DNA of 22,387 bases, from positions 1-22,387 of IMG/VR virus record IMGVR_UViG_3300021520_000011. One strand, 5' to 3'. Source of the DNA: a virus. The position numbers were made by a program, and so were the translations under genes. The notes beneath the pieces were generated by a model that saw only the letters and a program-made list of their open reading frames with translations, had not been told where the DNA came from and did no database searches. Positions 2,732 through 21,573 of the stretch are shown in pieces (position 1 is the stretch's first letter; each line of letters opens with the position of its first letter).

Positions 2732-4309
2732 ATGTCAACAGTTAAATGGGAACCAACACACACAGAAGAAAAGCGGCGGCACGATTTTTTAAGGGCGGTT
2801 TTTCTTGGTCAACATAGATGTTTATTAACAAACAAAGCCGGGGAACGTGTCGAGGGCTTAATGCACGTACCAACCGACGTGAACTGGCTGGGGGAACGAT
2901 ACACCCGGAAATTTAGCGCGTTTGTTATGCCTTTTATGCCGTCAGTAAAAACGGCTGCAGCAGGTGAACAAACCCGCATTGATTTGGCAGTACAGAAATT
3001 GCGCCTTGATACACTTGTGACAAGTTTACCCAATATTGTTTCATACGCCGGCGTGGCGTCAATTAAGATGTATTTTTCAAAGGCTGCAGCAGCCCCGCAA
3101 GTAAAGATTTGGGGCGTAGAAGAGGGCGAATTTGCATACTGGGAATATTTGCCCGGCGACGCGTCAGACCCCGTGGCAGTACAGTTTTGGAAAACAGAAA
3201 ACAAAAAGGACGCAGCAACCGGCGACAATTTACTATTCCGGGTTTGTGAACGATACGAAAAAGGGCTGGCGAACGATATAGTAATACGTTTAAACGACGA
3301 ATTACTAAAACCGACAACCCCGGGCAACAGGAAAGCCGAAATACTGCAGCAGATAGAAACAATAAAACAGAAAGCAACCCCGGGCGATTTTATTGTATTT
3401 GTGACAGTAGACGCCTTCGCCTTAAACAAAATGGGGAACCTGCAGGATACCGGTGGGCAGGTTCCTATATTTACAGTATACGGCGACAGCGTGCCGGCTT
3501 GCGATGTTTGGATATTAAATTACCTTCCCGCGTACAGGCTGCAGAATGTGGACGCAGCAGGAAAGAATCGGGGCGAAAGTGATTATACAATAAGCCTTTT
3601 ATATATGCAGGCAGAATTAAACGAATTGACGGCAGGCAGGCGCGGAACCATTAATTTTGTTGGGTTCCCCCACGCGGCGATACCGGACAGATTCGTGGAC
3701 AAGGCAAGCGGAAAGCTGCGACGCGAACAAATGCAAGTGGAAATTGATTACGGCAACAGTCAAATACCGGTTACAATAACGGACTGGGACGGCAATTTGG
3801 ATTTGTCAGCAGAAAATATTAAAATATTAAACGAAAGATTTTACGCATTAACCCCGATAACCCCCAGCCTTGAAGGGCAGGACGGCGCAAACACAAGCGG
3901 GGAAGCGCGGAAGCTGGCACTATATCCGGCAGAAGTCGCAATAAATCAGAAGCGGCAACCCTATAAAGATTTTTTCGAGTGGGTAATAAACTGCTGCAGG
4001 GCAATGGATAAATACTTTAATGCAGGCAGTAACGGCTTGGGCGAACCCCCGACAGATTCAAGCGCGGGCGTAATGATTACCACGGATTTTCCCCCGGGCA
4101 TTCCCCCGGCACTTGAAACAGTAATTGCAAACGTTTCGACAATGAAGCGCGATGGAATGATAAGCGACGAACAATATTTACGGGACGTTCGCACGGATTG
4201 GAACGAAGAACAAATACAAAATGAATTAACAAGGATAAAAGAAAAACAAGCCGAAGAACAAGCGACGCAATTACAGCAATTTGGGGCTGGGACGTTTCCT
4301 GCAGCGTAA
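2732..4309 (+). CDS. Portal protein (SPP1 gp6-like)
   Basis: A 525-aa protein directly after the large terminase. Position, length and overall composition fit the portal, the dodecameric ring at one capsid vertex through which DNA enters and leaves. The central part contains an extended beta-rich wing region. The region around residues 340-440 carries the long helices expected of stem and crown, including the conserved-looking segment EGQDGANTSGEARKLALYPA. The C-terminal section (GMISDEQYLRDVRTDWNEEQ and a charged helix) is typical of gp6-type portals. The start has a strong GGGGGCG ribosome-binding site just upstream. The gene ends at a strong terminator, unusual because the minor capsid gene normally follows at once. 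Here a leftward gene cassette of about 2 kb is inserted between them. Confidence 0.88.
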   Translation: MSTVKWEPTHTEEKRRHDFLRAVFLGQHRCLLTNKAGERVEGLMHVPTDVNWLGERYTRKFSAFVMPFMPSVKTAAAGEQTRIDLAVQKLRLDTLVTSLPNIVSYAGVASIKMYFSKAAAAPQVKIWGVEEGEFAYWEYLPGDASDPVAVQFWKTENKKDAATGDNLLFRVCERYEKGLANDIVIRLNDELLKPTTPGNRKAEILQQIETIKQKATPGDFIVFVTVDAFALNKMGNLQDTGGQVPIFTVYGDSVPACDVWILNYLPAYRLQNVDAAGKNRGESDYTISLLYMQAELNELTAGRRGTINFVGFPHAAIPDRFVDKASGKLRREQMQVEIDYGNSQIPVTITDWDGNLDLSAENIKILNERFYALTPITPSLEGQDGANTSGEARKLALYPAEVAINQKRQPYKDFFEWVINCCRAMDKYFNAGSNGLGEPPTDSSAGVMITTDFPPGIPPALETVIANVSTMKRDGMISDEQYLRDVRTDWNEEQIQNELTRIKEKQAEEQATQLQQFGAGTFPAA

Positions 4310-4505: not shown

Positions 4506-5090
4506 TTATCCTTCTTTGAACGCTTCGCCGCAGCAGCAAGTTGGTAAACCGACTTCCAGCCATTTCTTCGCAGCCCGCAAAGTATAACCGCATTCGGGGC
4601 AAACTATTTTCAGCATTCGCGTGGTATCTTTTTTTACGCCCGTTGTCATATTTTGCAGCGACGCGTGGGGATATTCGCCCAAAACTTCGGCTATTTCTTG
4701 CAAAGATTCTATTAACCTTTCGCCGGGTTCAGTGTGTGTCATTTTTCCGACAAGCCCGCAAGCCTTCGCCGCTTCTTTGAATTCGCCCTTGTGTTTGCAT
4801 TCGATACCCACGCTGGCGTGTATCAATTCATGCAGAAGCGTGGCGAGGACTTCGACAGGTTCCGACAGAATCGGGCTTATGAATATTTCATAATGCCCCG
4901 ACTTGCTGCATTCGGGCGACCAGCATTGACCGCCGGCAGGACTTGCGCCCGTTGCTTTTTTCGATGGGAAGCCGCAGGAAACGCGGAAGCCACCAGCCGG
5001 CAAATGAATGCCGGCGCGGGTTTTCAGTAAATCCGCTTCTATTTCAGCAGCGGCGGCAGTTAGCCATTTTTCGCGATTTTCGTAATTCAT
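4506..5090 (-). CDS. SprT-like zinc metalloprotein
   Basis: A 194-aa protein with HELIH at residues 87-91 and a third ligand candidate in ECKHKGEF (His100), the SprT/Spartan-type active-site arrangement. It ends in a zinc-ribbon-like segment with CPEC (residues 154-157) and a CCC cluster near 175-177, as in SprT family members. Cellular relatives cleave protein-DNA crosslinks, but phage versions are common and not characterised. The region between (THTEPGERLIESLQEIAEVLGEYP) is helical. The gene sits in a leftward cassette between portal and minor capsid genes. Its ATG at 5090 follows the preceding stop by one base, with AAGGCGG inside the preceding gene as likely ribosome-binding site. The active-site residues are intact, so it is probably active. 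Substrate unknown. Confidence 0.82.
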   Translation of the reverse strand: MNYENREKWLTAAAAEIEADLLKTRAGIHLPAGGFRVSCGFPSKKATGASPAGGQCWSPECSKSGHYEIFISPILSEPVEVLATLLHELIHASVGIECKHKGEFKEAAKACGLVGKMTHTEPGERLIESLQEIAEVLGEYPHASLQNMTTGVKKDTTRMLKIVCPECGYTLRAAKKWLEVGLPTCCCGEAFKEG

Positions 5091-5355: not shown

Positions 5356-5880
5356 TTAAAAACCTACCTTTTCCCGGCACTTCGCCCCGATACCATACGC
5401 GATAGATTCGGGATTGGTTAAAGGGCTGCCGCAAATGCCGCATATTCCCAATTCTATTCCGAAACGTCGTAAGGCTGCTTCGGGATTCGCGGCGATTTTG
5501 TCAATTATGCAATTTTTCGCAGCCTTGCTATAAATCGGGGTTCGATTAAATCCCCCGGGCGCGCCTGTCAGTAAATCAACAAATATAACCCCTTCCCATT
5601 TTGTGCCGGGCTTCCCGTGATTCACTTGGTAAAAATCCGTTGTGTTATCATTGCCGGTTACTGCATACCGCCCGGCGGGTATCGTTTTTTCGGGCTGCGT
5701 GGCTGCAGGTGGCGCGGCTTGCTTCTTAACGGGTAATTTTAGCAGGGCTTCTATTTGCTTCGATACGTCGCCCCGGTTCGGGCTATTCGGCAGCACGGGG
5801 AAGCCTTCGGGAATTTCCTTTTGTGCGATTAAGGAATTCATAAATTCGACTTGTTTAATTGTTGGCGGTTCGTAAATCAT
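5356..5880 (-). CDS. DUF6011-like zinc-binding phage protein
   Basis: A 174-aa protein when started at the ATG at 5880, which has GGGGTG at good spacing. A longer frame back to 5955 would overlap the membrane protein gene and has no ribosome-binding site. The N-terminal segment (PTIKQVEFMNSLIAQ, then a short helix near residues 38-50) resembles the small module that often precedes this domain. After an Ala/Pro linker comes a beta-rich middle (IPAGRYAVTG, then KWEGVIFVDLLTG). The C-terminal CGIC (147-150) with a second cysteine in GIGAKC (168) is the pattern I associate with DUF6011, a domain seen in many phage proteins and of unknown role. It probably binds one zinc. It is part of the leftward cassette. 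Family call by motif; function unknown. Confidence 0.7.
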   Translation of the reverse strand: MIYEPPTIKQVEFMNSLIAQKEIPEGFPVLPNSPNRGDVSKQIEALLKLPVKKQAAPPAATQPEKTIPAGRYAVTGNDNTTDFYQVNHGKPGTKWEGVIFVDLLTGAPGGFNRTPIYSKAAKNCIIDKIAANPEAALRRFGIELGICGICGSPLTNPESIAYGIGAKCREKVGF

Positions 5881-5906
5881 AATACACCCCTTTTTTTTTA
5901 CTTGAT

Positions 5907-6089
5907 TTATTCTTTGACTAATAAAGAACGAATGCCGAAGCAGATAGCCGGGCAAACGATAATGGAAAAGCTATAGCCTGTATTGATATATTCAAAATAC
6001 CAGCAAACTATGGTAAACGCTGCCCCGACGAGGGCAAAAAGAAAATCTAAAATTTCATTAATGATTCTGTAAATAAGCGGCATTTTCAT
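5907..6089 (-). CDS. Small membrane protein with two transmembrane helices
   Basis: A 60-aa protein with two hydrophobic segments, about residues 13-34 (ILDFLFALVGAAFTIVCWYF) and 40-56 (YSFSIIVCPAICFGIRSLL), joined by a short polar turn. The start ATG at 6089 has AAAGG upstream at normal spacing; a second ATG two codons later is also possible. Short two-helix phage proteins include holins, but nothing else here suggests lysis: no endolysin is adjacent and the gene is in an opposite-strand accessory cassette. An inner-membrane exclusion or host-modulating role is equally possible. No family recognised. A strong GC hairpin (6103-6123) sits directly upstream in the leader. Confidence 0.6.
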   Translation of the reverse strand: MKMPLIYRIINEILDFLFALVGAAFTIVCWYFEYINTGYSFSIIVCPAICFGIRSLLVKE

Positions 6090-6471: not shown

Positions 6472-6500
6472 TAGAAAAAATATATTTGATAATGTATAAT
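6472..6500 (+). promoter_or_regulatory. Putative rightward promoter of the giant minor capsid gene
   Basis: TAGAAA (6472-6477), a 17-base spacer and TATAAT (6495-6500) lie just before the ATG at 6507. The upstream 50 bases are extremely A/T-rich, as in an UP element. The predicted start point falls at or very near the ATG at 6507, so the mRNA could be leaderless. An AAAGGT at 6467-6472 would be a ribosome-binding site only for a non-ATG start further upstream. Confidence 0.5.
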
Positions 6501-6506
6501 GTCACC

Positions 6507-9500
6507 ATGCCAAATACTAATTTATACGCCCAAATAAATCCTTTTGTAGATGAAAAAGCCAAAGCCCTTTCACAAATTTACATTGATTTAGACGCGGAAT
6601 TACGCAGTAATTTAATCAATGCAACGCAGCAAGCCGTGGCGGGCGATTGGAATTTAAGGCGTTCGGCTGCCCTATTATCGCAAACAGAAAAGCAACTGCA
6701 GGAATTACAGGTTAATTTTCAAATATGGAATGGGGCAACCTTGCCCGAAGCGGCAGGATTGGGCGGCGCGGCAGTAAATCAGGAATTAAAAAAGTATAAA
6801 TTAAATCAGGAAAATGACAATACATGGAACCGACTTAATAAAGAAGCAATAGACGCGCTGGCGGCAGATATAGCGGGGCTGCACGGGCAGTTTTTGGGCG
6901 TTATACCGACACCCGAAGGCAAAACAAGTATACTGCGACAGATAGACGATTATTTAAGGATTTTGGGCGGCAAAGAAATAGCCCGGGGGCTTGGTTTGGG
7001 TTTGGGCAGCGACGAAGTAGCCCGCGCAATGAGAACGAAAAGTATAGACAGGCTGCGTGGGGGGCAACCGCTGCAGCAGTTAGCCGCCGGCGTCGATAAT
7101 GCGCTGGGAATGATAGACAAGGCAGGGCGCGAATGGTCGTTACACAGATACGGGCGCATGGCTGCCCAAACCGGAATGATGCGGGCTATAAACGAAGGAA
7201 GCGCGAATAAATTATTGCAGGCGGGGCAGCACGTTTATAAAGTAAGCAGCCACGGCACTTTATGTTATATATGCAAGCCGTATGAAGGTAAAGTTTTTGC
7301 CCTTGACGCGGAAGGCGAAGCCCGGGGCTATCCGAAATTAAATAGGGACGTTCCATTCCACCCGCACTGTATGCACAGCATAAGCCCGGCTATTCTTGAA
7401 ATATTACCGCCCGGGGATTCATACCCGACAATGACAAAAGAAGAAATAAACAAAACCGACAAAGATAGATATAAACAAATGAAACAGAATTACCCGGAAT
7501 TAATGCAGGCTGCTGGGCAGGGGTTCAGTAAAGAAGCGGAATGGGAAAGATTCAAAGCGACGGCAAAGGACGCAGCCGGCAACCCCGTACCGATTAAAGA
7601 TTTACGCGGCGGTAACTTTAGATACCGGGGCATTGAGAAGCGACGACTGGCGGCGACTGCAAACATGATAGCAAATGCGAATTTGTCATACGCGAAGGCG
7701 ATGGACACGCAAACCCGGAAATTCATGGGTACAAAGAATTATTTAGCGCAACGAACGGCGACAACCCCGACACAGCAGCGGGCTATTACAAACGCAGCAA
7801 AGAAGCCGGGGGGCGGCGTTGTGTTAAATCAAAACCCGTATTTAAATGGCACAATGCCCCCGGGTTCATATCATAAACTGCCGCCCGATTTACCACCGGT
7901 AGTAACATTAACCGCCCCGGGATATGGCGCGACAGTAACACCCCCGGCGACTAATAGCGTTATGCCTTCAATAAAAGATTATAAGGCAACCGACTATAAT
8001 TTATTTAAAACGGAATTTAAAAAGGCGTGGCAGTATGTTGTCGATAATTACCATTCATTAAATGCCGATGAAGTCGCCGCCGCTATTGATGAAATGACAC
8101 AGAAGAAAAAAGAGTATAAAAATTTATTGTCAGAAATGAAATTATCAGAATTAAAAGAAATTGCCAAAGCCGATAAAATAACAAATTGGGCGTTTGCAAC
8201 CAAAGACGATTTAATTATATTAATGACAGAAACAAGCGACGTAATGCTAAAACCGACCACGGACGCATTGGCGGCGAAGGTTACGGCATACGCGGAAAGC
8301 AGCGCGGCAAAGAAGGCAGCGAAGGCAGCAGAAAAGAAGGCGGCGAAAAAAGCCGGGGCAGCAGTTGACGACGTAACCGACAGCAGCGGAATTTCTGCAT
8401 TGACGGCAGAAGAACAAGCGGCACTGGATAATTTTAATGCAGCCTTTGACGCGTATAACGATTCATTATACACAGCAGCGGCACAAGCAGCAGCACAAGC
8501 CGAAGCAATAGCGGCACAAGAAGCAGCAAACGCAGCAGCAGCATGGCAAGCCGCGAACGATTCAGCAAACCACGTAATATTTACAGAATTAAATAAATTA
8601 AACAGCATACAAAAAGCGGCGGGCGAAACAGCCCCGTGGTTATCATTCAAAGAAAAGCTGCAGGAATTGCGAACCATTTTTTATTCACAAAGCGAATATT
8701 TAACAGCGCAACAAATAGCAGAATTTGAAACTTTATTTGTCGAAGGTGAAAAAATAGCGTTTAAGAATAAGCTGGACGCCTTGACCTTAAAAGATTTGAA
8801 AGTGATTGCAAAAGATTCGGGAATTAAAAATTGGGCATTCACTACAAAAGAAGAAATAATAACTTTAATGTCAGAAATTGCGCCCGATAAAACCGACCCG
8901 ATTACAAAGGCACTACAGGCGAAGGTGGACGGGTACGCGGCTGCAAAGAAAGCAAAGGCGAAGGCAAAGAAAGCGGCTGCAGATAACGCCCCCGTGGTTC
9001 CCGAAATAGACGCCCCGGGCGTTATACAATCCCCGGTTATTACTTCCCCGGATTTTGACGTTATAGACGCGAACTGGGCGCAAACCGTCGCAGATAATGC
9101 AGATAATTATTTTGATTATGTCGGAAACGCACAGCAACTGGGCGGCGTACATGACAAATATATATACAGCGACCCGCAAGGAAACCGGTGGTTATTTAAA
9201 CCCATGCGCGAAGAATTTTTATCATTAGCCGACGAAATGACTTATAAAATTGGGCGGCTATTTGACCCGGACGCGGTAGAAATTCGGAATGTAACTTTGG
9301 GCGGGCGCAACGGTTCAATACAGCGTATGAAAATGGGGCTGGAAGATAATATTAATTATGAAGGCGTCGCAGTCACAGCAATAAACGAAGACGAAATAAA
9401 ACAACTGCAGCAAAAACACGTAATTGATTGGCTTATGAGTAATCACGACGGACACGCGGAAAATTTTTTAAGAATGGCAAACGGGAACGTGGTAGAAATA

Positions 9501-11639
9501 GACCAAGCGCAAGTTTATAAGTTTTTCGGGCGTGACAAATTAGATATAAATTACAATCCGAACGCAACCGGGCAGCACCCCCGGACGTTATACAATGATA
9601 TTTTTCATGCAGTAAAAAATGGTCAAATGACAGTTGACCCATTAGAAGCATTAAAAACTATTCAGAAAATAGAAGCATTAGCCGATAATGACTTTTTAGA
9701 TTTATTGGATAAGTACGCATTAAAAAGATTTGCTAATAATGATAATAAATATTTGGAATTTCTAACAGAAGCCCGCAAGCGTAAGCAAAATATACGGGCA
9801 GATTTTGAAAAATTTTACAGCGACGTATTAAATAAACCCGGGTTTACTTTTGACACAATGCAGGCAGAAGCGCGGGCAGTTAATACGACGCAGCGCGTGG
9901 CTGCTGCTGCCCCGGACAGCGACGAGTGGAAGCAATGGGCGCAATACCTTGAGGACGTGAAAAAATTGGGTGGGCAGGGAAAAGAATTTCCGTTTGATAC
10001 CGATATGATAGAAGAACAAAATTTATTAACCTATATTGAAAAGTTACCGAACGGCAGCAGCCAGACAGTTATGAGGGTTAAAATTCGCCCGGAACGTGAA
10101 AGCGAATTGCTAAATTTATTAAATAATTCGGGCGGGACACCCGGAACCCCCGGCGTTCCTATAGGTTCAATTCACCCCGATGATAATTATTACGAAACAG
10201 TAAAAGCGGCAGCAAAAACAATTAACCACCATATTACGCAGGGCGATACTGCATACAATCAGTCAAAATTAAACGCGGCGTTATCTTTACGCGACGAGTT
10301 ACGTAATATTGTATATCACCAGACAGTTGACGCAGAAAAAGAAGCAATGGCAAAGTATTATTTGGAAATGATAACCGATATACAAACGGCGTCAGTATCA
10401 AGCAGCCCCGAAGCATTGCCATTCTTTGAACAATATAGAACCCGGGCAGTTATAGGGGGAACCCCGGCGATACCTGCAACAAATGGCGGGTTAAATATTA
10501 GTTATAAAGGCAACGTAAGAATTCCGAAAAAAGTAACACAAAGCGGCGACACAGTAAACACCCAAACAGTATTTGATAGTTATCACGACGCAATGAATAA
10601 ACCGAATTATGGCAGTAAGGACGGGTTACAATATACAATAGATTTGGGCGACGGTTACGAAGCAACCTATCTACCGTGGGGACACGAAAATTATTACGCG
10701 GAAAGCGGCAAACTTGAAATAAGATGGGCAGGGCAACCGACAACAAACGAATTAAAAGAAGTATTCGGAAAAATGTCGAACGATTTAAAAATACCGGCAT
10801 TCAAAGCAGCCGGCGAAGATATGGAATTATTATATTTACATAAACAGGCTTATGTCACCTTGGAAACGAAAACCCCGGCTTATCGTAATATGATTAGTCA
10901 ATTAGACGCCCGGGGCGCAAGTAATGCCGAAAGAATACAGAAAATGCGGGAATATTGGAACGGTAAATTGGGAGTTGAGGACGTGACAAAATTACCCGAT
11001 TATAACCCGCTGGGTGAATATCAAACTGGGTTCAAAGATAATACAATTGACGGCGGGCGGCGTATTACAAAGCGTTTCGATATATCAGAAGCGCAAATTA
11101 ACGAAGAAATGAAAGATTACAGAATATACATGGCAGTCACAGCTAATAACGGTATAGACGACTTAATTAATTTGATGATGAAAAATAATGGCGTATTAGC
11201 GGCAAACGTCGAAAAATTGCGTATTGGCGTTCCGGGCGGCGGTTGGTCACCTATACAGGACTTGGATAAAGGTGGCGCGAATTTTGTATTTACACGTATT
11301 TTCAATAAAGATACCCGCGAAAGCGGATTATTTTTTAAGCCCAATATGCTGCGTAGAATGGACGCAATAAGTTACGACCACGACGCATACGGTAATTGTG
11401 TTGGGGATTTTGTAGAACAAAATAGAAAAACAACTATTAATGATTTTAGAAGCCGCTGCGCAATACGCCCACGGAATGAAACCGACTTTAAAAATTCTAT
11501 ATCATTTCTTGACAATATAGATATTATAAAATGTAACGGCAGCGCACAAAAAGAAAAAATTATAAAAGCATTTCACGATTTGAATATAACGCGATTACCC
11601 GACGGGCGATTAATTAAAAATATTGTGAAATGCCTTTAA
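6507..11639 (+). CDS. Giant MuF-like minor capsid protein with SAP-like repeats and kinase-like domain
   Basis: About 1710 aa from the ATG at 6507; TTG at 6486 and ATG at 6492 are alternative starts. Residues 1-320 match a minor capsid/MuF protein: an N-terminal helical region, then CYIC (253-256) and HPHCMH (285-290), the usual Cys/His metal site. Residues about 500-850 hold two related units. Each has a SAP/Rho-N-like helix pair (LSELKEIAKADKITNWAF near 546; LTLKDLKVIAKDSGIKNWAF near 759) and an Ala/Lys-rich tail, with an Ala-rich coiled coil between them. Residues about 870-1130 look like a HipA/PI3-PI4-kinase-type domain: Lys898 in WLFKP, Glu910, HVIDW at 971, NHDGHAEN (979-986) and EIDQ with Asp999. 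A Gly/Pro linker near 1210 precedes an unassigned region. The last 180 residues include RIGVPGGGWSPIQD and MDAISYDHDAYGN. The MuF part suggests a location inside the capsid at the portal; the rest may be delivered to the host. Kinase call is by motif only. Confidence 0.8.
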   Translation: MPNTNLYAQINPFVDEKAKALSQIYIDLDAELRSNLINATQQAVAGDWNLRRSAALLSQTEKQLQELQVNFQIWNGATLPEAAGLGGAAVNQELKKYKLNQENDNTWNRLNKEAIDALAADIAGLHGQFLGVIPTPEGKTSILRQIDDYLRILGGKEIARGLGLGLGSDEVARAMRTKSIDRLRGGQPLQQLAAGVDNALGMIDKAGREWSLHRYGRMAAQTGMMRAINEGSANKLLQAGQHVYKVSSHGTLCYICKPYEGKVFALDAEGEARGYPKLNRDVPFHPHCMHSISPAILEILPPGDSYPTMTKEEINKTDKDRYKQMKQNYPELMQAAGQGFSKEAEWERFKATAKDAAGNPVPIKDLRGGNFRYRGIEKRRLAATANMIANANLSYAKAMDTQTRKFMGTKNYLAQRTATTPTQQRAITNAAKKPGGGVVLNQNPYLNGTMPPGSYHKLPPDLPPVVTLTAPGYGATVTPPATNSVMPSIKDYKATDYNLFKTEFKKAWQYVVDNYHSLNADEVAAAIDEMTQKKKEYKNLLSEMKLSELKEIAKADKITNWAFATKDDLIILMTETSDVMLKPTTDALAAKVTAYAESSAAKKAAKAAEKKAAKKAGAAVDDVTDSSGISALTAEEQAALDNFNAAFDAYNDSLYTAAAQAAAQAEAIAAQEAANAAAAWQAANDSANHVIFTELNKLNSIQKAAGETAPWLSFKEKLQELRTIFYSQSEYLTAQQIAEFETLFVEGEKIAFKNKLDALTLKDLKVIAKDSGIKNWAFTTKEEIITLMSEIAPDKTDPITKALQAKVDGYAAAKKAKAKAKKAAADNAPVVPEIDAPGVIQSPVITSPDFDVIDANWAQTVADNADNYFDYVGNAQQLGGVHDKYIYSDPQGNRWLFKPMREEFLSLADEMTYKIGRLFDPDAVEIRNVTLGGRNGSIQRMKMGLEDNINYEGVAVTAINEDEIKQLQQKHVIDWLMSNHDGHAENFLRMANGNVVEIDQAQVYKFFGRDKLDINYNPNATGQHPRTLYNDIFHAVKNGQMTVDPLEALKTIQKIEALADNDFLDLLDKYALKRFANNDNKYLEFLTEARKRKQNIRADFEKFYSDVLNKPGFTFDTMQAEARAVNTTQRVAAAAPDSDEWKQWAQYLEDVKKLGGQGKEFPFDTDMIEEQNLLTYIEKLPNGSSQTVMRVKIRPERESELLNLLNNSGGTPGTPGVPIGSIHPDDNYYETVKAAAKTINHHITQGDTAYNQSKLNAALSLRDELRNIVYHQTVDAEKEAMAKYYLEMITDIQTASVSSSPEALPFFEQYRTRAVIGGTPAIPATNGGLNISYKGNVRIPKKVTQSGDTVNTQTVFDSYHDAMNKPNYGSKDGLQYTIDLGDGYEATYLPWGHENYYAESGKLEIRWAGQPTTNELKEVFGKMSNDLKIPAFKAAGEDMELLYLHKQAYVTLETKTPAYRNMISQLDARGASNAERIQKMREYWNGKLGVEDVTKLPDYNPLGEYQTGFKDNTIDGGRRITKRFDISEAQINEEMKDYRIYMAVTANNGIDDLINLMMKNNGVLAANVEKLRIGVPGGGWSPIQDLDKGGANFVFTRIFNKDTRESGLFFKPNMLRRMDAISYDHDAYGNCVGDFVEQNRKTTINDFRSRCAIRPRNETDFKNSISFLDNIDIIKCNGSAQKEKIIKAFHDLNITRLPDGRLIKNIVKCL

Positions 11640-12049
11640 ACTTCGCGCCGGCATTTTTCCCGTATTCTATTTATTTCGTCAAATAGCGGCTTGCCGATTT
11701 TAGCGCAATATTTTTTCCATTGCATGAATATGTCATATTTTTGGGGATATGCTGCAGCGTTAATAGCGTTAAAATCAAAGCCCCGCCCCCGGTTATCAGT
11801 AATACAGATATTATCTATATTTGTCATGGTAATATTGACGCCTTCTATAACGTGTGTACACCTGTCATTCTCGTAAAATCCATAATCGAGTAATAAAAAA
11901 TATACTTCGTTTTCACTTCTATATTTTAATAATTCGATAAGCCCCGCACCACCCCGGGGCTGCATACTTCCGCTGGCGTGGTAAATGTCATATTCAAACC
12001 CCGAAGCGTTTAAACGCGCCAAAATTTCTTCTATTTGCGATTTATTCAT
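11636..12049 (-). CDS. Unknown protein, 137 aa, lone leftward gene next to the giant capsid gene
   Basis: A 137-residue soluble protein (starting MNKSQIEEILARLNASGF) with a helical N-terminus, a central beta-rich part (EVYFLLLDYGF, then HVIEGVNITMTNIDNICIT) and a helical basic C-terminus (FDEINRIREKCRREV). It has no signal peptide, membrane segment or known motif, and I recognise no family. It is convergent with the giant capsid gene; the two stop codons overlap by two bases. It has its own near-consensus promoter and a leader hairpin whose arm includes the only SD-like sequence (GGGGGG) before the ATG at 12049. Independent expression next to a possible capsid-borne effector would fit an immunity or regulatory protein, or simply a moron. 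Function unknown. Confidence 0.65.
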   Translation of the reverse strand: MNKSQIEEILARLNASGFEYDIYHASGSMQPRGGAGLIELLKYRSENEVYFLLLDYGFYENDRCTHVIEGVNITMTNIDNICITDNRGRGFDFNAINAAAYPQKYDIFMQWKKYCAKIGKPLFDEINRIREKCRREV

Positions 12050-15929: not shown

Positions 15930-16352
15930 ATGGCGAAATTTTTAGCCAAAGAAATCAAAGTCGAAATAGACACGGACGGACTGGGGACGCTTGCAGAAAT
16001 AAAAGAATTGACAAGCTTTGAACACAACCCGGCAACCGACCGCGTAGATTTGACAGACTTTGACAGCACAGATGGGCGCAAAGAATCAACAGTCGTTTTC
16101 CGGGGCGATACTTTTGTATTGCAGGGCAAAGCGGAACCCGACGACGATGGACAAATTGCCGTGGCTGCAGTCGCAGCCCTGCAGGGCGATGACGCGGTGG
16201 CTGCATATAAAATATCAGCCGGCGGCAAAACCTATGATTTTTCTGCAACTGCCGAAGTAAAATTATTCGGCGGCGGTTTAACGGACGGCGCAACGTGGCA
16301 AGCGACGCTGGAAGTAACCGGAGTACTTACCCCGGGCGTTGTAACCCCGTAA
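15930..16352 (+). CDS. Tail tube protein, copy 1
   Basis: A 140-aa beta-rich protein that is a clear paralogue of the next gene. Both start MAKFLAK and share EHNP-TDR, GRKES, FRGDTFVLQG, AGGKTY and LFGGGLTDGATWQAT. Position between terminator and chaperone, size, and the final beta-sheet segment fit the major tail tube protein, which polymerises as hexamer rings around the tape measure. The start ATG has GGGGGA at seven bases. This copy is slightly longer, with an N-terminal insertion (KVEIDTDGLGTLAEIKELTS) and a C-terminal extension (VLTPGVVTP). One of the two may form most of the tube and the other a special ring or decoration. Which is which cannot be told from sequence. Confidence 0.78.
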   Translation: MAKFLAKEIKVEIDTDGLGTLAEIKELTSFEHNPATDRVDLTDFDSTDGRKESTVVFRGDTFVLQGKAEPDDDGQIAVAAVAALQGDDAVAAYKISAGGKTYDFSATAEVKLFGGGLTDGATWQATLEVTGVLTPGVVTP

Positions 16353-16416: not shown

Positions 16417-16809
16417 ATGGCGAAATTTTTAGCCAAAGATATTGTAGCAAAACAGGGGTCAAACGTAATCGGCAATTTACGTTCGATTGAACATAACCCC
16501 AGCACCGACCGGGCAGATATGACAACCTTTTCAAGCACCGGCGGGCGCAAAGAATCAATAGTGATTTTCCGGGGCGATACCTTTGTATTGCAAGGGCTGG
16601 CAAACCCGACCGACGCGGGACAGGCTGCAGTAAACACACTGGGGCAGAATGTCGGAACCGCTGCAGAAGGCGCATTTTCATTAATTGCCGGCGGCAAAAC
16701 TTATGCCTTTAACGGAACCGTAGAAACCAAGTTATTTGGCGGCGGTTTAACCGACGGCGCAACATGGCAGGCGACAATTGAAGTCACAGGCGCAATTACT
16801 GTATCTTAA
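16417..16809 (+). CDS. Tail tube protein, copy 2
   Basis: A 130-aa protein homologous to the preceding gene along its whole length, including the same start (MAKFLAKDI), SIEHNPSTDRADMT, FRGDTFVLQG and GGGLTDGATWQATIEVTG. DNA in the shared blocks is also nearly identical, so the pair arose by tandem duplication and the copies have since diverged. The start ATG at 16417 has AAAGGGG upstream. It lacks the N-terminal insertion of copy 1 but has a longer middle (TLGQNVGTAAEGAFSLIAG). Likely the second tube component. Both frames are intact, which suggests both are used. Confidence 0.78.
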   Translation: MAKFLAKDIVAKQGSNVIGNLRSIEHNPSTDRADMTTFSSTGGRKESIVIFRGDTFVLQGLANPTDAGQAAVNTLGQNVGTAAEGAFSLIAGGKTYAFNGTVETKLFGGGLTDGATWQATIEVTGAITVS

Positions 16810-16879: not shown

Positions 16880-17434
16880 ATGGTAATTAAACACAGAACT
16901 GGTAAAATTATCCCGCCGGGTGAAATTAACGAAAATGAAATTGATACCACTCGGGCGAAAGACAAAGCGGAAATAAAATTAAATTCTGCAGATATTGCAG
17001 AATTACCGAATGATTTAAAAATCACAATTCCGCTATTAAAAGAGGACGGCAGCGGAACCGACGAAGCCGAATTAAAATTGACTTTCCGAACCGTCGCACA
17101 AATACAGCAAGAATTAAAAATCACTTTCCCCGGCGTTTTACAGGGCGTGGGCGCGATGGATTTTGAAGTTATTAACGCAGTTGTTTGGGCTTGTGTATTG
17201 CATTCATTCCCGCAAGGTGAACCGCTGCCGACAGTTGACGCAATAGCCGAACGAATACCGCTTGACGAATTCGATAATGTAAGCCAAAAAGTTGAAAAAT
17301 TGCTGCGTAAGGCATTTCCCAAACTATTCGCAGAAATAGACGAGGATAATATAGCAAGAAAAAACTTAATTCGCCAAATTCAAGAGGAAAATCTGCGAAA
17401 AACTCTTGGGATTGGCGATATTTTAAGCGAATAG
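16880..17434 (+). CDS. Tail assembly chaperone, short form (gpG-like)
   Basis: A 184-aa soluble protein between the tail tube and the tape measure, the fixed place of the tail assembly chaperone, which coats the tape measure before the tube polymerises. It has a charged N-terminal part, a beta/alpha middle (EAELKLTFRTVAQIQQELKI) and helices near the end (VSQKVEKLLRKAFPKLFAEI). The start ATG at 16880 has AAAAGGTG upstream. Near its end it carries the slippery heptamer A-AAA-AAC at 17359-17365, and the -1 frame stays open to 17664, so a longer fused form is expected. The short form ends at 17434. Confidence 0.82.
   Translation: MVIKHRTGKIIPPGEINENEIDTTRAKDKAEIKLNSADIAELPNDLKITIPLLKEDGSGTDEAELKLTFRTVAQIQQELKITFPGVLQGVGAMDFEVINAVVWACVLHSFPQGEPLPTVDAIAERIPLDEFDNVSQKVEKLLRKAFPKLFAEIDEDNIARKNLIRQIQEENLRKTLGIGDILSE
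17359..17365 (+). other. Programmed -1 frameshift site (A-AAA-AAC)
   Basis: The in-frame reading is AGA AAA AAC, so the last A plus the two codons form the classic X-XXY-YYZ slippery sequence A AAA AAC. Slipping back one base enters a frame open from 17350 to the stop at 17662-17664. A second A-rich stretch (CGA AAA ACT at 17396-17404) is a weaker alternative. Confidence 0.72.
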
Positions 17435-17664
17435 CATACGGAATTTGCGGATTTAAAAGCGAATTAGAATGGCTTGATTTATCGCCCAGCGTTTTGTTTG
17501 ATATGTCAGAAGCGATATTGTGGCGGCTTAAATTAGAAAAAGGCAGCAGCCCGGGCATACAAACTGAATCAAATAATGATATAATAACGGCAGATAATAG
17601 CGAAGCCGGGGGATTTGTAGACGCAGGGGCATATTTTGCGTCGATGTTTTCCGGGAAAAAATAA
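17365..17664 (+). CDS. Tail assembly chaperone, frameshift extension (gpT-like part)
   Basis: This -1 frame continues the chaperone after slippage at 17359-17365 and adds about 99 residues, for a fused product near 261 aa. It fills the otherwise empty gap between the short form (stop 17434) and the tape measure (start 17677). The extension has WRYFKRIAYGICGFKSELEW, then LDLSPSVLFDMSEAILWRLK, a helical pattern with Trp and Leu residues like the second part of other siphovirus chaperones, and a C-terminal acidic/glycine tail ending MFSGKK. It has no good start of its own. The longer form is expected to bind the tube protein or tape measure while the short form is made in excess, as in the lambda G/GT case. 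Confidence 0.75.
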   Translation, partial: LNSPNSRGKSAKNSWDWRYFKRIAYGICGFKSELEWLDLSPSVLFDMSEAILWRLKLEKGSSPGIQTESNNDIITADNSEAGGFVDAGAYFASMFSGKK

Positions 17665-17676
17665 GCGGGGTTTATT

Positions 17677-20600
17677 ATGTCGTTTGACGCAGGGGCTATA
17701 GTAGCCCGTTTAAGTTTAAATACAAACCAATTTGATACGAATTTAAATCGTTCGCAGAATAATGTCAGAACCGCGACCAATTCAATGGTTCGCGGTTTTG
17801 GCGGTATTGAGGACGCAATAAAAGCAGCAACCGGCGCAATGATTGGACTGTCAGCAATGGCAGCCGCCGGGTTTGCTATTCGGGACGCGTTAACCTTTGA
17901 ACGTTCCATGCGGAATGTTAATAGTATAACCGGGTTAACCGAAGCGGGCTTAAAATCATTAAATGCGGAAGTATTAAAATTCGCGAAAGATAGCACGCAA
18001 AGCCCGGATTTATTGGCGCAAGGTTTATACGATATAGCTTCTTCGGGTTTTCAAGGCGCGGACGGGTTAAAAGTTTTGGACGCTTCCGCACGCAGCGCAA
18101 CGGCGGGCATGAGTACCACGGCGACCGCTGCGAAAGTTATTACAGGAGCATTAAACGCGTACCATTTAGAAGCAGGAAAGGTGGGCGACGTTTCCGACGT
18201 GCTTTTTCAAACAGTAAACAAAGGCGTTATTAATTTTGAACAATTAGCGCAAGGCTTGGGAAACATTATGGCACCAGCCGCCGCTTCAAATATCGGCTTG
18301 GGTGAATTAGGGGCAGCCATTGCAACCTTAACAGTAAACGGAACGCCTGCAGCCGAAAGCATGACAAATTTACAAAACCTTATAAACAAAATTCTTGCGC
18401 CTTCTGCCGATTTAGAAAAAGCATTAAAGAAAATGGGTTACGCGTCGGGCTTCGCCTTCCTACAGGCAAACGGGCTGGCGGGTTCGCTTAAAAAATTAGA
18501 CAAGGCAACCGGGGGCGATGTCGCCGGCATTCGTAAATTTTTCCCCGACGTGCAGGCATTTTCCGGGGCATTAGGTTTAATGGGTAAAAATTCTGCGACG
18601 TTTTCAAGTAATTTACGGGATATAGCCGACGCCACGAAAGTGGCCGGGGCAGCAAACAAAGCATATCAGGAACAAATGAAAAGCCCGCTTAATCAGTACG
18701 AAGCGGCGAAAAATAAAGTAAAAGCGAATGTCATAGAATCATTAACAAACAATTTATTGCCGACGTTAACCCCTATTATTACAGCGTTTGGCGTGTTATT
18801 TAATGCAGCTATGCCCGTGGTGAATATGCTTGCAATATTAGCAGGAAAGGCGGCAACATTCGCAGCAAGCCCGCTGGGGCAGAATGTTATCGCAATATCA
18901 GCCGCGTTTATCGGGTTAAAAATGGCAATAGCCCCAATTGCCGGGATATTTGGAACCGCTATTGGATACCTGCAGCGGCTTGCAGTTGAATACAATACAA
19001 CCGCGAACGTTTTAAAAAAACCTATTCAAATGAGGGCTTCTGGAACGTTTGAAACGGCGCGGCGAACGGCACTGGGCGGCACGGCGCAAGTATACGACGC
19101 AGCAGCAGCGAATCGAATAGCGCAAGCAAATTTGGCAAATTCAAATACTGCAATGCGGGCAACCTTTGCAACTAATCAATACAGCGACGCCCAGATAAAA
19201 CAGATATTCACACAGCGGCAGGCAGCTGGCGAAGCGGTACGGGCAGCACGCGGGAATTTAGAACTTGCACAAAGTAACCTAATGGCAGCACGTGCCGAAG
19301 AAATACGCACCACGGCACAATTTAACGCAGTCGCCGCTGGGCGTTCCCGTTCGGGTTTATCCGTTGCACAAGCTGCAGCCCTTCGAGATGAAGCCATTGC
19401 AAATTCACAGGCAGCAGTGGCGACAGCAAACAAAGCCGAAACAGATATGGCAGGGGCGACAATGGCGGCACGAAACGCAAACGCCCGGGCAGCGAATACA
19501 TTAGCGCAACAAGGCGGCAGCGTAGCAACTGCACAAGCGACGGTGGCGACAAACACGCTGGCAGTCGCAGAAGCCGAAGCAGCAGCAGCGACAGCAGCAG
19601 CAGCGGGGGCAGCGGGGGCGCAAGCCGTCGGGCTTCGGGCAGTATTCGCGGGGGCATTAGCAGCAGCGGGCGCATTAGGTACGATGTTGGCGACACAGTT
19701 AGCAATGGGCGCGGCAATTGCCGGGCTTGCTGCCGTCGGGTATGAAATGTGGAAAATATGCGAATACACAAAGCAGGCGGCAGATGAACAAAAGCGTTTA
19801 AACGATTTATTACCGGGTGACAAGGCAAACTGGGCGCGGACTTATGAAACAAGTAAAAACAGAAGCCCGGCAGAACAAGCCCGAATTAAAAAAGAGAATT
19901 TGCAGTATAATACAATTATTACCGCCCGAATTGACCCGAACGATGAAAAGGCGTTAAGTGACAGCGTATCATTTATGAGAAACCGAATAGCAAAGCAGCA
20001 AAAGCGGCTTTTAACTGCCCCGGTTGGTTCCGAAAGATATAAACAATTACAAAGCAATATACAATTTGATACAGAAGTGCAAGGCAATTTGGAAAAAGGC
20101 GTGGAAGCAATACGCAGTAAACGCAAACAGAACCCGGACACAGCCGGCGTGGGCGTTATGACAGGGGCAGAAAAAAAAGGAAAACATCAGGCTATTGTGA
20201 TACCGCCCCCCGCTGGCGGCTTCAATATGGATTGGATAAATAAAAAAATTGCCGAAGCCGAAAGCCGTAAAACTTTTGTTATAAAGAAAACAGGAGCGAC
20301 ACATGGTGAAGAGGTTCAGAAGTTAGACAAAAAGCTGGACGCCTTAAAAGCGATAAAAGAAATTATTACCCGGGACACGCAAAAAGTCGTATTATCCCCG
20401 GTAATTAGCGGTTTGGAAACCGGAAAAATAGGGCTTGAACAAATGGCTGGGAGTGTTAAAAAATTAAATGAACAATTAGCCGACCTTAAAATAGAACAAG
20501 CGAAATTAAGCCCGGAAAATAGACGCTGGCACGAATTAGCCGACGCGATAGGAATAGCCGAAAGTAAATTAAATATATACCAAGGCAGCATGGCAAAATG

Positions 20601-21573
20601 GGCGCAACAGTACGCGGAATTATCGGGCATGAAATACACCCGGGCAATGCGTGGCATTGAAGCAAATTTTGCTTCTGCCGACCTTGCACAAATGCAGCGA
20701 TTTGGGCGTATGCAGCAGATAGCCGACCAGATTGGCGGCACGTATGCAACAAAGATACAGGCGCAAATTACACTTGAAACCAATTTATCAGAAATACAGC
20801 GACGCAGGGCAGAAAGTGAATTGGATTTTGAGCGGCAAATAAAGGACGGGAAAATGGCGGGCGCGTCAAAAACCGCTATAATGGCGATAGAAGAACAAAA
20901 GAAATTCACACTTGAAAAAATTACAAACGAAGAACAAAAAGTAAAATTGCAATTTCAAATTGAAATGAACAAACAAAGCCTTGACGACGCGAAGCAGCAA
21001 TTAATGGACTTTACGAATTTACACCCCGTGAAAGGTTCGGAATATGCAGCCGGGTACAAACAAGCAATAGAAGCAAACGCAACGCAGGCAGCAATGGGCG
21101 TAAACAATAGCGGCGATATTTACGCAATGATACGTAAATCATTATCAGAACCAGTGGGCTTTTCCCCGGCTTCTATGTCATACGCAAAAGGGACCCCGGT
21201 GGCGGGGCAGGAATTAGCCGGTGGCGCGTTTACCCGGGGATTAAGAAACCCCATTAGTAATATTGCTAATTATGCAGCCCCGGGGCTTGGGGACGCTGCA
21301 GGCGCGTTAAATGATACTTTAAAACAACTGGGCAACCTATTGCAAACGACTTTTGGCGGGCTGCCGCAAGCAATAGCAGAATGGGGCGAGAATATGCGAA
21401 ATTTGACAGCCCCGCAACAAGTCGCAGCAGCAGCAGGGGGACAGGGCGGCAAGTTGAATATAGTAATAAATATCCCCGAAAGCGTCGAAGCAAAAACGAC
21501 CGGCGGGGTTCCCGATAACTTAAACGTAGTATTTCAGAATATGAACCGACGCGGAAAACTTTGGGGGTTTTAA
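17677..21573 (+). CDS. Tail tape measure protein, TP901 family
   Basis: A 1298-aa protein, the longest tail gene. Residues about 95-240 carry the TP901-type core (QSPDLLAQGLYDIASSGFQG, then FEQLAQGLGNIMAPAAASNI). Hydrophobic segments occur near residues 45-70, 365-390, 402-432 and 655-690; those near 365-432 and 655-690 could insert in the host membrane during DNA entry. Between them is a very Ala-rich coiled-coil stretch (about 465-650). The C-terminal third has charged helices and ends in a Gly-rich, beta-type tail (KLNIVINIPESVEAK). Length suggests a tail of roughly 190-200 nm by the usual 0.15 nm per residue rule. The start ATG has GGGG upstream and lies 13 bases after the chaperone extension stop. 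No lytic transglycosylase motif was seen. Confidence 0.92.
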   Translation: MSFDAGAIVARLSLNTNQFDTNLNRSQNNVRTATNSMVRGFGGIEDAIKAATGAMIGLSAMAAAGFAIRDALTFERSMRNVNSITGLTEAGLKSLNAEVLKFAKDSTQSPDLLAQGLYDIASSGFQGADGLKVLDASARSATAGMSTTATAAKVITGALNAYHLEAGKVGDVSDVLFQTVNKGVINFEQLAQGLGNIMAPAAASNIGLGELGAAIATLTVNGTPAAESMTNLQNLINKILAPSADLEKALKKMGYASGFAFLQANGLAGSLKKLDKATGGDVAGIRKFFPDVQAFSGALGLMGKNSATFSSNLRDIADATKVAGAANKAYQEQMKSPLNQYEAAKNKVKANVIESLTNNLLPTLTPIITAFGVLFNAAMPVVNMLAILAGKAATFAASPLGQNVIAISAAFIGLKMAIAPIAGIFGTAIGYLQRLAVEYNTTANVLKKPIQMRASGTFETARRTALGGTAQVYDAAAANRIAQANLANSNTAMRATFATNQYSDAQIKQIFTQRQAAGEAVRAARGNLELAQSNLMAARAEEIRTTAQFNAVAAGRSRSGLSVAQAAALRDEAIANSQAAVATANKAETDMAGATMAARNANARAANTLAQQGGSVATAQATVATNTLAVAEAEAAAATAAAAGAAGAQAVGLRAVFAGALAAAGALGTMLATQLAMGAAIAGLAAVGYEMWKICEYTKQAADEQKRLNDLLPGDKANWARTYETSKNRSPAEQARIKKENLQYNTIITARIDPNDEKALSDSVSFMRNRIAKQQKRLLTAPVGSERYKQLQSNIQFDTEVQGNLEKGVEAIRSKRKQNPDTAGVGVMTGAEKKGKHQAIVIPPPAGGFNMDWINKKIAEAESRKTFVIKKTGATHGEEVQKLDKKLDALKAIKEIITRDTQKVVLSPVISGLETGKIGLEQMAGSVKKLNEQLADLKIEQAKLSPENRRWHELADAIGIAESKLNIYQGSMAKWAQQYAELSGMKYTRAMRGIEANFASADLAQMQRFGRMQQIADQIGGTYATKIQAQITLETNLSEIQRRRAESELDFERQIKDGKMAGASKTAIMAIEEQKKFTLEKITNEEQKVKLQFQIEMNKQSLDDAKQQLMDFTNLHPVKGSEYAAGYKQAIEANATQAAMGVNNSGDIYAMIRKSLSEPVGFSPASMSYAKGTPVAGQELAGGAFTRGLRNPISNIANYAAPGLGDAAGALNDTLKQLGNLLQTTFGGLPQAIAEWGENMRNLTAPQQVAAAAGGQGGKLNIVINIPESVEAKTTGGVPDNLNVVFQNMNRRGKLWGF

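Follow-up and report, generated by a model that had tools for sequence, protein, structure and literature searches.

A probable programmed -1 frameshift at A_AAA_AAC in the tail assembly chaperone gene of a tailed phage

Introduction

How could an open reading frame (ORF) that overlaps the end of the preceding gene in the -1 frame, and that opens without a standard start codon, be translated? The question is raised by the viral record IMGVR_UViG_3300021520_000011, in which the whole stretch of DNA analysed here (22,387 bases, hereafter the window) carries tailed-phage genes for head and tail, namely a terminase, a portal, an SU10-type major capsid protein, a head-tail adaptor, two tail-tube-like genes and a tape measure gene. 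The two overlapping ORFs are directly flanked by the tail-tube-like genes on one side and the tape measure gene on the other.

As described in PMC5009743, -1 frameshifting has been reported for the lambda G/GT pair and for many other phages. In lambda the frameshift occurs at a low level, giving a molar ratio of about 30:1; the binding partner of the G part is the tape measure protein and that of the T part the tail tube protein (PMC5009743). Among the consensus heptamers given in PMC3711429 is A_AAA_AAC, and 7% frameshifting is reported there for one phage tail assembly chaperone cluster. A frameshift predictor has also been published, in a text that mentions tail assembly chaperones 12 times (PMC10885494).

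It is very likely correct that a tail assembly chaperone is made at this locus in two forms, G and G-T, through a programmed -1 frameshift. This reading had been proposed in a first-pass annotation of the window, and is supported by the place of the gene, two conserved ORFs, a shared slippery heptamer and a stem-loop, from which we infer slippage itself. What is new beyond that annotation is the predicted stem-loop and a candidate pseudoknot, the latter weakly supported by the close relative.

Two overlapping ORFs between the tail tube and tape measure genes

The 0-frame ORF (16880-17434, plus strand) starts with ATG, ends with the stop codon at 17432-17434 and encodes a G-like tail assembly chaperone of 184 aa. 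The -1 frame is closed by stops at 17347 and 17662 with none in between, leaving a T-like extension open at 17350-17664 (plus strand). Joining the two parts by a -1 shift gives a product of 261 aa. The first-pass annotation had these boundaries and the approximate size of the fusion right, while its gap of 243 bases comes to 242 bases between the end of the G ORF and the next ORF at 17677. Upstream, the pair is preceded by a major-tail-protein-like gene (16417-16809, plus strand; PHROG 3884, E 0.0013), and downstream it is followed by the gene for the tail tape measure protein (17677-21573, plus strand; Pfam PF10145, E 4.9e-24; PHROG 28, E 2.6e-30).

Profile and structure comparisons say little about either part. 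Residues 62-156 of the G part match PHROG 2115 weakly (E 6.4e-5), a family named only 'tail protein', whereas the T part has no match in PHROG, Pfam or phage records. Neither part gave a Pfam match above the cut-off. AlphaFold models were poor (mean pLDDT 40.5 for G and 53.7 for T), and a Foldseek search of BFVD with the low-confidence T model returned no match at E <= 0.001.

A single close relative was found, the contig IMGVR_UViG_3300044611_002685 (L002, with duplicates L012, L015, L016 and L021). It has the same gene order and carries both ORFs in the same frame relation, with 65% protein identity for the G ORF and 59-63% for the T ORF. The query P0001 alone found no close relative in viral_contigs, and the alignments A1 and A2 found nothing there beyond the contig of L002. 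Furthermore, neither A1 nor the tape-measure alignment A4 detected a close relative in genome_contigs, and tblastn of both ORFs against 50,697 phage records revealed none either. At sites with the same amino acid in the window and L002, identical codons are used in 16 of 22 cases within the overlap and in 55 of 95 upstream of it, an excess so modest that it counts against the frameshift reading.

The slippery heptamer

The heptamer A_AAA_AAC lies at 17359-17365 (plus strand) in the 0-frame phase of X_XXY_YYZ (AGA AAA AAC), just where it had been noted before. Conservation of the heptamer in relatives, proposed at that stage as a check, was found in the one close relative, in which the identical heptamer is located at L002:4226. 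The G ORF contains three in-phase X_XXY_YYZ heptamers, TTTAAAA at 17014, TTTCCCC at 17125 and AAAAAAC at 17359. Since the first two are upstream of the -1 stop at 17347 they are unusable, which leaves 17359 as the sole entry to the -1 frame.

Across 14 window genes A_AAA_AAC occurs in phase at only one of 5655 positions, that at 17359, and this site itself accounts for every one of the 28-codon stretches that contain the heptamer (0.42% of 5277). At least one of six standard efficient heptamers is present in 2.9% of the 28-codon stretches of these genes, and any X_XXY_YYZ in 24%. When the actual peptide was redrawn with synonymous codons (n=20,000), A_AAA_AAC appeared in 8.5% of the draws and any heptamer in 68%. 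Given these chance and synonymous-draw rates, the heptamer by itself is suggestive only and is not conclusive evidence of frameshifting. Combined with the open -1 frame, the place of the gene, the stem-loop and the relative L002, it forms strong evidence.

A Shine-Dalgarno-like GAGGA (17342-17346, plus strand), 12 nt 5' of the heptamer, was considered as a possible upstream stimulator and rejected, as L002 has no conserved GAGGA. Towards its 3' end, the G ORF of L002 carries an additional in-phase heptamer, T_TTA_AAA (L002:4289); the window counterpart is TTTAAGC, so that this heptamer is not shared.

Predicted RNA structure 3' of the heptamer

The heptamer is followed by a 5-nt spacer (17366-17370, plus strand) and then by a predicted stem-loop (17371-17418, plus strand), in which 17371-17377 would pair with 17412-17418 and 17379-17386 with 17403-17410. 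This structure has 15 pairs, one mismatch between its two helices and a 16-nt loop. The predicted fold of 17371-17440 has an energy of -21.3 kcal/mol and a z of -4.26, the strongest of three downstream stretches (the others being -3.17 and -3.38), and a fold that includes the upstream flank (17320-17440) reaches a z of -5.17. None of 2000 synonymous 0-frame recodings, a null in which the -1 frame is not preserved, folded equally well. Counting against the stem-loop, 81 of 1763 66-nt tiles taken from 13 window genes fold as stably.

L002 has a matching stem-loop, likewise predicted 5 nt downstream of its heptamer, with -20.7 kcal/mol and a z of -3.06 (69 nt) and with the inner pairs drawn slightly differently; a 105-nt stretch of L002 gives a z of only -1.65, which again counts against. 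In the register of the window, 14 of the 15 pairs of stem 1 are possible in L002, of which 12 are unchanged and two changed on one side, and one pair is lost. Covariation gives the stem no support, as no pair is changed on both sides between the window and this lone close relative, a point against the frameshift reading; the shuffle control was uninformative.

Pairing of the loop with bases further downstream (17389-17399 with 17444-17454, plus strand; 11 pairs) would give a candidate H-type pseudoknot. The pairing of this stem 2 has a p of 0.0065 in the window against shuffles of the 3' stretch, a value uncorrected for the pairing having been deliberately sought. The longest such pairing in L002 is no better than chance (p 0.87), with nine of the 11 pairs possible there in the window register, and a competing hairpin is also predicted within the 3' stretch. 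It is conceivable, though rather doubtful, that stimulation comes from a long pseudoknot of the H type, formed by the 15-pair stem 1 (one mismatch) and a stem 2 of 11 pairs that extends into the part specific to T. On this reading the pseudoknot would make A_AAA_AAC, which shifts weakly in E. coli, efficient in a chaperone family that is barely recognised by present profiles. This pseudoknot is the one candidate for an element beyond the ordinary at the locus.

A second chaperone family next to related tape measure genes

Nine further loci with tape measure proteins 37-42% identical to that of the window carry another chaperone family in the DNA before the tape measure gene. They are the listed plus-strand matches covering the site when the G-like protein of one of them (L083) was used as query against 96 loci, copies included. 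In seven of the nine, a slippery heptamer is located at one homologous codon position (L079:4266, L082:5633, L083:1842, L087:4327, L093:2144, L094:5462 and L095:3842), as A_AAA_AAC in five loci, G_GGA_AAC in one and G_GGT_TTA in one. Identity to the query is 93-100% for L083, L093, L094 and L095, which are thus not independent, and of the five loci with A_AAA_AAC, four differ little from one another. The other two (L085 and L091, identical in this context) have no heptamer at the homologous position and carry C_CCT_TTA 12 nt upstream. A change of sequence in which slipperiness is kept is what selection for ribosomal slippage would predict. According to hhalign, neither the G nor the T part of the window is significantly similar to the chaperone family of L083, so that this second family supports the type of gene and not direct homology.

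A broader survey of the DNA upstream of tape measure genes covered 86 loci, one search contributing the best 80 of 104. The survey script took 71 of the 86 as input, 15 having been left out by hand because they were repeats, almost identical copies or short of upstream DNA, and 68 of them were distinct. When only the best ORF pair per locus was counted, a -1 pair was present in 41 of 68 loci (21 with a heptamer) and a +1 pair in 25 (3 with a heptamer), with no pair in two. When both kinds were counted per locus, there were 41 -1 pairs (22 with a heptamer) and 29 +1 pairs (12 with a heptamer), a smaller contrast that counts against. The survey is probably confounded by chance overlaps in GC-rich contigs and by shared first ORFs, and the conclusion is therefore not rested on it.

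Alternative routes to the T part

Of the other ways to obtain the T part, slippage by RNA polymerase on the six-A run fares best, although it is improbable. One A would be added in some transcripts and the fusion would then arise by ordinary translation, and the site does consist of six consecutive A. For transcriptional slippage such a tract, with a C after it, is short. Furthermore, polymerase slippage would not predict a stem-loop 5 nt downstream, and the G_GGA_AAC and G_GGT_TTA found at the same position in the second family suit ribosomes better.

Still less probable is separate synthesis of the T part, by an internal start or by a restart past the G stop codon. The overlap between G and T would in principle permit such coupling. 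However, no ATG, GTG or TTG precedes 17494 in the -1 ORF, in line with the region without a standard start recorded in the first-pass annotation. The first such codon, TTG 17494, and the next, ATG 17503, are both located past the conserved WDWRYF and LSP motifs, and close to the G stop at 17432 the -1 frame offers only ATA 17431 and ATT 17443. That an indel from sequencing or assembly split one gene is hardly credible, even though the frame change adjoins a homopolymer: L002, a separate contig with 68% DNA identity in the G-coding region upstream of the overlap, has the identical split, and past the heptamer the 0-frame protein is conserved at 19 of the 22 residues that start with L163.

Proposed mechanism and comparison with known systems

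With programmed -1 frameshifting as the preferred reading, most ribosomes would stop at 17432-17434 and release the 184-aa G form. The stem-loop, perhaps as part of a pseudoknot, would hold up a minority of ribosomes, which would slip back one base on A_AAA_AAC and read on to 17662, yielding a G-T form of 261 aa. The case of lambda suggests that the G part would attach to the tape measure protein, with the tail tube protein recruited by the T part; these roles, and the rate of slippage, we infer. With slippage in tandem AAC would be decoded first, which predicts the junction IARKN|LNSPNSR and the diagnostic tryptic peptide NLNSPNSR. The IARK of the peptide proposed earlier would then not end the 0-frame portion, as the following N would belong to it as well.

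The lambda heptamer is G_GGA_AAG, unlike that of the window, which is A_AAA_AAC with a predicted stem-loop right after it; the two systems are likened by description, not by sequence. Like gpG/gpGT of lambda, the window locus nonetheless precedes the tape measure gene, would give a short form and a -1-extended one and carries its slippery site close to where G ends (PMC5009743). The haloarchaeal tailed virus HCTV-2 uses A_AAA_AAC itself as the shift site of its g-t pair, the identical gene type (PMC5009743), although virus and host are different and this likeness, too, is one of description. According to the same source, the tendency to shift in E. coli is much lower for A_AAA_AAC than for A_AAA_AAG (PMC5009743), which is a point against the frameshift reading. 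Mycobacterium phage Gaia, whose capsid is related to that of the window (53% identity), has an annotated joined (two-piece) tail assembly chaperone, gene 11, before its tape measure gene, the in-phase heptamers being G_GGT_TTG and G_GGA_AAA, unlike in the window.

Many tailed phages are known to use this type of mechanism, and the window locus probably adds one more example, in which a clear stem-loop is predicted after A_AAA_AAC. For annotation, the start-less stretch 17435-17664 can be assigned to the tail chaperone as its T extension. The other loci, in which the heptamer has changed in sequence and been kept in place, help to judge which phage shift sites work.

Other features of the window

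Elsewhere in the window, a 1717-aa ORF (6486-11639) matches Phage_min_cap2 at residues 209-334 and Rho_N at 548-577, with no further Pfam match at E <= 0.01. The plus-strand structural genes are interrupted by minus-strand ORFs at 4506-5090, 5356-5955 and 11636-12049, which in Pfam gave a SprT-like match below the cut-off, a DUF6011 match and, for one of them, no match. Upstream of the chaperone gene, 15930-16352 and 16417-16809 are tandem major-tail-protein-like paralogs with 59% identity across 134 columns. L002 also has a tandem pair of this kind, in the open frames 2762-3226 and 3291-3677.
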